The notes beneath the pieces were generated by a model. The model was not told the origin of the DNA, searched no databases, and was given only the letters and a program-made list of their open reading frames with translations. 64,000 nt of DNA from Acidimicrobiaceae bacterium. GTDB taxonomy: Bacteria > Actinomycetota > Acidimicrobiia > Acidimicrobiales > RAAP-2. The translations under genes were made by a program, and so were the position numbers. Position 1 is the stretch's first letter, and each line of letters starts with the position of its first letter. Below are positions 44,745 through 47,267 of the stretch, one piece after another. The stretch lies in the NCBI GenBank assembly GCA_027451285.1, contig DAIDJP010000041.1, forward strand, positions 36,870 through 100,869. The letters run 5' to 3'.

Positions 44745-45378
44745 GGTGCTCCTCTCGACTCTCAAAGTACTGGAGGGCGTTGCGAACAAAGGATTCGACT
44801 TTCTCGCGGTCCTTTGCCCCAGGCGAGGACTCCGACCCGCTCGCCACGTCACAGCCCCACGCACCCACCTTGGCCAGCACGTCGGCCACGGTGTCGGCCC
44901 GCAGTCCACCGGCCACGATGACGGGCCGGTTCCAGCGGCGACTCGCGACCGCGTCCCAGTCGTGGGCCACGCCCGAGCCCGGACGGGGCCCGTCGATCAG
45001 GTACGCGTCACCGACGCCGCTCGCCGCGTCGAGCTCGTCCACCGACAGCGCCTCGATGAGAGCGAGACCCCGCTCGCGCGCCAGGGATGCGACCCCCTCG
45101 TCCAGTCCGCCGTGAATCTGCAGCGCGTCGAACTCGACCACGTCGAGCGCGCGCGCTACGTCGTCGTAAGCGACGCGGCGAAAGACACCCACGCGAACGA
45201 GCCGGTCGCTCACGGTGGCACTGATCGTGCCGGCCACCTCGAGGCTGACCCGTCGCGGTGAGTCGGCGAGGATCACGCCCAGAGCGTCGGCCCCCGCGTC
45301 GGCCACGAGCTCGGCGTCAGAGACCGTCGTGACCGCGCAGACCTTGATGAAGTGGCGCAAGCCCAGGACCTCAGCCAC
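44737..45378 (-). CDS. trpF: Phosphoribosylanthranilate isomerase
   Basis: IKVCAVTT...ADALGVI, LQIHG, IDGPRPGSG; GTG overlaps the trpC stop. Confidence 0.9.
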   Translation of the reverse strand: MAEVLGLRHFIKVCAVTTVSDAELVADAGADALGVILADSPRRVSLEVAGTISATVSDRLVRVGVFRRVAYDDVARALDVVEFDALQIHGGLDEGVASLARERGLALIEALSVDELDAASGVGDAYLIDGPRPGSGVAHDWDAVASRRWNRPVIVAGGLRADTVADVLAKVGAWGCDVASGSESSPGAKDREKVESFVRNALQYFESREEHHG

Positions 45379-46165
45379 GCGCGCGTCGTTCCACGGAGGA
45401 GAAGTCGCGCACCAGACCTTCGGGCGAACTCGCGCGCACGAAACTCTCGCCGACCAGCACGGCGTCGACGCCCGACTCGGCGGCCCTCGCGACGTCCTCG
45501 AGGCTGACGAGCCCGGATTCGGCCACGGCGAGGACTGAACCGGGTAGCGCCGACAAGACCGTCGCCGCGCGACGCGGGTCGACGTCGAACGTGCGCAGGT
45601 CGCGCTGGTTGACGCCGACGATGCGCGCCCCCGCCGCCAATGCTCGCTCGGCCTCGTCGGCGTCGTGGACTTCAACCAGGGCGTCGACGTGACAGGCCGC
45701 GGCCACCGTCACGAACTCCTCGAGTTCGGCGTCGCTGAGGGCGGCCACGATGAGAAGCACCGCGGCCGCACCCATCTGGGCCGCGTCGAGCACGTCATTG
45801 GCGCTGACGGTGAAGTCCTTTCGCAGCAACGGCACCGACACCGCCTGACGCACCGCTCGCAGGTCGTCGACCGAGCCCGAGAAGAAGTCCTCATCGGTCA
45901 GGACTGAGATCGCGGCCGCTCCGCCGTTGGCGTAGGCGCGCGCCGTCGCCTCGACGTCGAGGTCCTCGTTGAGCCATCCCTTGGACGGTGATCGCCGTTT
46001 GATCTCGGCGATCACCGCGACGTGTGTCGAATCAGCCCGAAGAGCGTCGTGGAAGGAGGGACCCTCATAGACCACCTCGCCGAGGCGGCCTTGCCAGGAT
46101 CGGTGATCCAGGGCCGCGCGGGCCCGGTGCGCGTCGACGATGGTGTCGAGATACGTCGCGGTCAT
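45371..46165 (-). CDS. trpC: Indole-3-glycerol phosphate synthase
   Basis: IAEIKRRSPSKG, LLRKDF, VGVNQRDLRTF; ATG at 46165 is 6 nt after TACGAT. Confidence 0.96.
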   Translation of the reverse strand: MTATYLDTIVDAHRARAALDHRSWQGRLGEVVYEGPSFHDALRADSTHVAVIAEIKRRSPSKGWLNEDLDVEATARAYANGGAAAISVLTDEDFFSGSVDDLRAVRQAVSVPLLRKDFTVSANDVLDAAQMGAAAVLLIVAALSDAELEEFVTVAAACHVDALVEVHDADEAERALAAGARIVGVNQRDLRTFDVDPRRAATVLSALPGSVLAVAESGLVSLEDVARAAESGVDAVLVGESFVRASSPEGLVRDFSSVERRARG

Positions 46166-46171
46166 CACGAA

Positions 46172-46177
46172 ATCGTA
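46172..46177 (-). promoter_or_regulatory. Leaderless -10 box TACGAT (N6-ATG 46165, trpC)
   Basis: TACGAT-TTCGTG-ATG. Confidence 0.65.
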
Positions 46178-46206
46178 CTGTCGCGGTCGCGACGCTCAGT
46201 CACGAC

Positions 46207-46212
46207 TAACTT
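46207..46212 (+). promoter_or_regulatory. Leaderless -10 box TAACTT (N6-ATG 46219, trpD leader ORF)
   Basis: TAACTT-GTCGCT-ATG. Confidence 0.6.
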
Positions 46213-46218
46213 GTCGCT

Positions 46219-46251
46219 ATGTTGAACGCCGTCTCGAGCGCTGGCGCATGA
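46219..46251 (+). CDS. Candidate leader peptide MLNAVSSAGA coupled to trpD
   Basis: ATG 6 nt after TAACTT; TGA (46249-46251) overlaps the trpD ATG (46248-46250). Confidence 0.55.
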   Translation: MLNAVSSAGA

Positions 46252-47267
46252 GCGACTCCTTCGCCCTGGACGTCCTCCAGCCCCTCGTGCGCGGCACCGA
46301 CCTCGAGCGCGTCGAGGCGCGCGACGCCTTGGCGGCCATCCTCGCCGGGCGCGTCGAACCCGTCCTGATCTCGAGCTTTCTCACGGCCCTGACCGCCAAG
46401 GGAGAGACCGCCGCGGAAATGACCGGCTTCATCGACGCGATGATCGCGGCCGCTTCCACCTTCACCGTGACCGATGAGGCGATCGACATCGTGGGCACGG
46501 GCGGCGACCAGCTGCACACGGTGAACATCTCCACGATGGCCGCTTTCGCCGTCGCCGGTTGCGGGGTGCCCGTCGCCAAGCACGGCAATCGCGCCGCGTC
46601 CTCCTCGGTGGGATCGGCCGACGTTCTTGAGGCTCTGGGCGTGCGCCTCGACGCCCCGGCCGAGGTCGTTCGCGCCTGCGTCGACACGGCGGGAATCGGC
46701 TTCATGTACGCGCCCACCTTCCACCCCGCGCTGGGCAATCTGGTGCCCATTCGCCGCGCCCTCAAGTTCCGCACGATCTTCAACGTCCTGGGCCCCCTCG
46801 CCAATCCGGCACTGGTGCGACGAGCGCTCATCGGCGTTGCCCAGGCCCACCTGCTCGACTCGATGGCCGAGGTGCTGCACGCGCGCGGGGCGCTCTACTG
46901 CGTCCTCGTGCACGCCGATGACGGACTGGACGAGCTCTCCCTGGGAACCCCCTCGAGCCTGCACGAGATCCGTCCCGAGGGCGTCTCCGTGCGCGACATC
47001 GACGCCGGCGGCGAGCTGGGTCTGCACCACAGCGCCGCGAGCATCCGCGGGGGCGACACCACCGACAACGTCGCCGTCGTGCGGGCCTTCCTCGAGGCCC
47101 AGCCGGGTCCCGTCTTTGACGTGGCGTGTGCGAACGCCGCACTCGCGCTGATGGTCGCCGGTCGGGCGACCTCGTTGCGCGACGGCTTCGACCTGGCCGC
47201 GGCCAGCGTACGAGACGGCCGGGCCGCGCGGGCACTCTCACTCTTGGTGGAGATCTCCAACGCCTAA
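46248..47267 (+). CDS. trpD: Anthranilate phosphoribosyltransferase
   Basis: GTGGDQLHTVNIST, KHGNRAASSSVGSADVLE. Confidence 0.96.
   Translation: MSDSFALDVLQPLVRGTDLERVEARDALAAILAGRVEPVLISSFLTALTAKGETAAEMTGFIDAMIAAASTFTVTDEAIDIVGTGGDQLHTVNISTMAAFAVAGCGVPVAKHGNRAASSSVGSADVLEALGVRLDAPAEVVRACVDTAGIGFMYAPTFHPALGNLVPIRRALKFRTIFNVLGPLANPALVRRALIGVAQAHLLDSMAEVLHARGALYCVLVHADDGLDELSLGTPSSLHEIRPEGVSVRDIDAGGELGLHHSAASIRGGDTTDNVAVVRAFLEAQPGPVFDVACANAALALMVAGRATSLRDGFDLAAASVRDGRAARALSLLVEISNA

Follow-up and report, generated by a model that had tools for sequence, protein, structure and literature searches.

A predicted leaderless mini-cistron overlapping the trpD start codon in Acidimicrobiaceae

The divergent trp locus

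The window is the whole stretch of DNA analysed here, 64,000 nucleotides on contig C41 of a 2.03 Mb MAG (G000). It contains trpD, which encodes anthranilate phosphoribosyltransferase, on the forward strand at 46248–47267, and the divergent trpC on the reverse strand at 45371–46165. The trpD product matches the NCBIfam equivalog model TIGR01245 with 342.5 bits, the cut-off being 199. This match, together with the alignment of homologues from residues 1–4, makes 46248 a plausible trpD start; the nearest further in-frame ATG upstream is at 46140, within trpC. The trpC gene scores above the cut-off of NF001377 and is predicted, from its promoter spacing, to be leaderless from the ATG at 46165, with TACGAT (46172–46177, reverse strand) as its -10 box.

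The first-pass annotation had described a short open reading frame between the trpD promoter and the gene itself, and all of its elements are confirmed by reading the sequence. The trpD -10 box, TAACTT (46207–46212, forward strand), conforms to TANNNT and is separated by the six nucleotides GTCGCT (46213–46218) from an ATG at 46219. This ATG opens a ten-codon mini-ORF on the forward strand (46219–46251; MLNAVSSAGA), which reads ATG TTG AAC GCC GTC TCG AGC GCT GGC GCA TGA. Its TGA (46249–46251) overlaps the trpD start codon in an ATGA tetramer at 46248–46251. The mini-ORF is predicted to be leaderless, the A of its ATG being the predicted transcription start site (TSS).

Leaderless start signals

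The assignment of a leaderless start had relied on a general spacing rule, and this rule holds in the source genome. Among 389 genes predicted by a codon-usage caller in about 386 kb (GC 68%), 49 have a TANNNT exactly 6 nt 5’ of the start, while other spacings account for 0–5 genes nearly everywhere, apart from spacing 7 (13 genes) and spacing 9 (7 genes). TANNNT-N6-RTG predominates among start signals in the sampled parts of the genome. The trpC gene follows the same spacing and serves as an internal positive control; the arrangement recurs at trpC in 69 of the 79 loci that make up classes M, F and S in congeners (defined below). With regard to trpD, 46 mini-ORF loci have a readable promoter; the distance from the -10 box to the RTG is 6 nt in 44 of them and 7 nt in two, the promoter of one further locus (L031) being masked. 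The T, A and T of the box are invariant in 44 congener rows. The RTG at 46219 thus has exactly the promoter spacing of a predicted leaderless start, conserved in congeners.

The trpD -10 box is extended at its 5’ side by CACGAC (46201–46206, forward strand), in columns -18 to -13 that are conserved in 44 congeners. A CACRAC-like stretch lies just 5’ of TANNNT at both divergent trp promoters throughout the genus (in the window at 46201–46206 and 46178–46183). Hardly any other leaderless promoter in the source genome has such an extension, and CRCRAS-TANNNT-N6-RTG occurs only three times in it. This conservation and rarity suggest that the stretch may be a trp-specific operator.

Conservation of the mini-ORF across the genus

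The genus yielded 89 distinct trpD loci, from Acidimicrobiaceae and Acidimicrobiales MAGs of which many are labelled palsa, bog or fen. Sorted by start type, 47 carry a mini-ORF opened by the promoter-linked RTG (class M), and in 19 this RTG shares the trpD frame and serves as its start codon (F). The promoter sits immediately at trpD in 4 (D). Another 13 have no RTG at +1 but a Shine-Dalgarno (SD) leader (S), and in the remaining 6 trpD comes straight after another gene (O); classes S and O were assigned by eye. A 48th mini-ORF locus by the mechanical rule, L152, was rejected and reassigned by eye to the SD class, as its GTG-to-TAA ORF lies far upstream and it has the SD leader of its clade.

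Loss of the frame or of the overlap in relatives had been named as an outcome that would count against the first-pass annotation. The opposite was found, since in all 47 class M loci the stop of the mini-ORF falls between 6 nt before and 5 nt after the trpD start. The arrangement is NTGA in 30 of them, TRATG in 11 and an 8-nt overlap in 3, and the stop precedes the start by a gap of 1 nt in 2 and of 3 nt in 1; the mini-ORFs measure 7–11 codons. In each of the 11 TRATG loci, codon 2 of trpD does not begin with A, which makes ATGA impossible, and TRATG supplies the stop instead. Whichever of the three relative frames the mini-ORF uses, its stop stays close to the start, and it does so with unrelated peptides; L014, which has an in-frame TAA and then ACA GTG, is no exception. 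The mini-ORF frame contains no stops except the terminator of L014 itself, and the other two frames contain 7 and 9. Furthermore, the promoter and the start codon are conserved in congeners, while the spacer sequence is not. Across the loci compared, the start, the openness of the frame and the position of the stop are kept while the peptide changes.

Shine-Dalgarno strength and exchange of start types

A search for 16S rRNA in the source MAG found none. Pairing was computed with an assumed canonical anti-SD, which may not be the genome’s own. Under this assumption, the best duplex at the trpD of the window reaches -3.4 kcal/mol, while the median for random positions is -3.1; this agrees with the earlier view that trpD has no strong SD. 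On the same assumption, median pairing is -3.3 kcal/mol in the M loci, -3.1 at random positions and -9.4 in the S loci. The M loci are thus at background, whereas the 13 loci that lack an RTG at +1 have a strong SD; pairing below -7 kcal/mol is found in 13/13 S loci and in 5/47 M loci (P about 1e-6). Since five mini-ORF loci do possess an SD-like stretch, coupling is possibly not the sole route everywhere.

Mapped onto a TrpD tree, the five start types require 8 changes; shuffling raises the mean to 37. Mini-ORF and in-frame starts have switched repeatedly, for instance among L053 (M), L054 (F), L003 and L004 (both M) in the subclade to which the window belongs, the tree being midpoint-rooted and no direction of change being claimed. 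In six outlying members of the genus (L035, L036, L115, L120, L162 and L166), trpD lies directly behind a gene ending in ...DLWWD*, whose stop codon adjoins or overlaps the trpD start (TAG-ATG, TAATG or TAGTG). This adjacency suggests that a near stop–start spacing at trpD may be the older state.

Proposed mechanism and alternative readings

We infer the TSS, the translation of the mini-ORF and termination–reinitiation from the sequence. The reading that we favour, and hold to be very probable, is that a leaderless mini-cistron loads ribosomes at the 5’ end of the mRNA and hands them to trpD by termination–reinitiation. The trpD mRNA would begin at the A of the ATG at 46219, and a ribosome would take this 5’-terminal AUG without an SD site, read the ten codons and stop at the UGA inside AUGA. 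The terminated ribosome would then reinitiate at the overlapping AUG to make TrpD. The peptide would be immaterial, the mini-cistron taking the place of an SD. Ribosome delivery to trpD is most likely the only function of the mini-ORF, because it is kept in dozens of related bacteria of soil and acid water though its peptide changes completely.

The best-placed alternative, which nevertheless appears unlikely, is that the translated mini-ORF is chiefly a brake on trpD or a decoy; trpD would rely on a weak initiation of its own, and the ribosome translating the mini-ORF would mediate the regulation. Upstream AUGs compete for ribosomes and translated uORFs can repress, as does the metE uORF that lowers MetE in M. 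tuberculosis (PMC11260477). However, a decoy would not need a stop near the trpD start, yet all 47 loci have one, and the clades without the mini-ORF carry a strong SD, as expected if the mini-ORF were an activator.

A considerably less probable reading is that the ATG at +1 is an untranslated by-product of the promoter and the overlap a matter of chance. For one genome this has some force, as the odds of an overlap are about 1 in 4: when the spacer is randomised, 25–27% of such upstream ATGs stop at the trpD start. A single overlap would therefore be weak evidence, and its significance comes from conservation across the genus. With randomised spacers, 25% of the outcomes are coupled and 28% in-frame open, while 12% stop early and 35% stop late. 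Early and late stops, expected at 47%, are absent among the loci apart from the mechanical flag on L152, which belongs to an SD clade. The null probability of a stop at the trpD start is 0.25 overall and about 0.35 given an out-of-frame ATG, so that 10 independent lineages would all show it with a probability of about 3e-5; the lineages are related rather than independent, and such simple probabilities overstate the significance. The spacers form 14–28 clusters, depending on the identity threshold. Untranslated frames would neither hold the position of the stop in 47/47 loci with diverged spacers nor be in frame with trpD in 19 others.

The location 5’ of a tryptophan biosynthesis gene is reminiscent of trpL, and one could imagine an attenuator or a functional leader peptide that responds to tryptophan or to some other signal; the peptide and the leader make it most improbable. 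The mini-ORF of the window has no Trp codon, hence no tandem Trp codons of the trpL type, and there are 3 Trp among the 393 residues of all mini-ORFs. The peptide is not conserved: identity between 27 spacer clusters averages 10%, and 12 near pairs show 14 codon changes that are synonymous and 36 that are not. Moreover, the leader measures 29 nt and has no unusual structure (folding z 0.16), and no terminator or antiterminator was found in it. The mini-ORF, by its codons and leader, is not a Trp attenuator, which upholds the first-pass view that it is not a classical one.

Equally remote is stop suppression with frameshifting to give a mini-ORF–TrpD fusion as the main product, for, despite a minor uORF–PPE2 fusion reported at an AUGA overlap (PMC11260477) and in-frame fusions in 19 relatives, the relatives use all three relative frames with no common slippery sequence apparent.

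Other candidate genes in the source genome and its relatives

Gene-coupled leaderless mini-ORFs were also counted genome-wide, ORFs in frame with called genes being excluded. At spacing 6 they make up 4/12, against 13/268 (P 0.003), and inspection exposed at least one of the four as false. The enrichment is modest and partly due to false positives. Several candidates were rejected. The NUDIX gene (L184:11184) has a conserved TANNNT-N7-GTG in frame 9 nt upstream, and argC (L173:9978, spacing 5) is a plain leaderless gene, its relatives having TAAAAT-N6-ATG at argC. The candidates at L172:880 and L173:5595, whose downstream genes are putative hemW and argH by protein sequence, resemble the 3’ ends of upstream genes and were lost once in-frame ORFs were excluded. 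The L177 candidate recurs in the near-identical G021 alone.

Besides trpD, a leaderless mini-ORF joined to its gene by ATGA is conserved at a response-regulator-like gene (L176:3789–4552, reverse strand). This mini-ORF has 20, 19 and 16 codons in G000, G158 and G160, respectively; the latter two retain TAGTAT-N6-GTG and ATGA, and their ORFs differ in sequence. The trpD gene is by far the best-supported coupled case.

Two further promoter features were observed. Genus-wide, the argC boxes TTGCATTTTT and TGCATAAAAT (L188–L217) are ArgR-box-like and overlap the leaderless promoter TAAAAT-N5 to N7-RTG. At the NUDIX gene (L248–L267), TANNNT is conserved in two places, about 90 and about 22 nt 5’ of the aligned start, with an RTG 6–7 nt further on in most.

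Implications

Leaderless short ORFs in bacteria might serve through their peptide, through regulation or by a mere hand-over of ribosomes. What is new at trpD is a natural experiment (NATURAL REPLACEMENTS) in which mini-ORF, in-frame start and SD replace one another. That close relatives exchange these modules while the peptide is free to vary favours ribosome delivery. Additionally, the case shows where gene callers place a bare, SD-less start.

A broader reading is offered tentatively, and we lean slightly against it: the 5’ end of trpD would shift among equivalent modules (leaderless mini-cistron whose stop overlaps the start, in-frame leaderless extension at the N-terminus, SD leader and direct leaderless start), and the mini-cistron would be a general, peptide-free substitute for the SD in leaderless-rich bacteria, at other genes too.

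Comparison with known systems

A literature search combining ‘leaderless’ and ‘Acidimicrobi’ returned nothing that treats an architecture of the trpD type, judging by titles and abstracts. Ribosome delivery by short uORFs is named as a proposed function in a 2025 review (PMC12548453). In bicistronic designs, as proposed for the trpD mini-ORF, a short leader ORF ‘delivers’ ribosomes to the next gene (PMC12548453); those leaders are engineered, whereas the trpD mini-ORF is natural and predicted to be leaderless.

With regard to coupling by overlap, Huber et al. (2019) found that, of 14 overlapping gene pairs in Haloferax volcanii and E. coli, 13 are strictly coupled (PMC6728339), where ATGA or TGATG overlaps are expected to couple translation. 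The stop and start codons at trpD likewise overlap or adjoin. Those pairs are full-length genes, the second of which usually has an SD in front, whereas the upstream cistron at trpD has ten codons and an SD is lacking. Kipkorir et al. (2024) described uPPE2/PPE2 of M. tuberculosis, in which an out-of-frame AUGA uORF acts mainly through termination–reinitiation (PMC11260477). The frame relation, the AUGA overlap and the lack of an SD at the downstream gene are shared with trpD; uPPE2 is itself SD-led and controlled by a B12 riboswitch, whereas the trpD mini-ORF is predicted to be leaderless, with no riboswitch apparent.

The closest precedent is that of Shell et al. (2015), who reported leaderless, RTGA-coupled small ORFs in mycobacteria whose linkage is kept while the peptide is not (PMC4633059). 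As there, the trpD mini-ORF begins with an RTG at the (here predicted) 5’ end of the mRNA, is short, shares an RTGA tetramer with the next gene and has a linkage that outlasts the peptide. Its ten codons fall within the 5–50 aa of that class, its overlap is ATGA, and its architecture is conserved in 47 loci at about 10% peptide identity between clusters. It differs in the class (Acidimicrobiia), in the gene, in resting on 47 loci rather than a two-species example and in having a predicted TSS and translation; the stop may also be TRATG, overlap by 8 nt or end 1–3 nt short of the start. The leaderless coupled architecture is already known from mycobacteria, and the trpD case adds a new instance.
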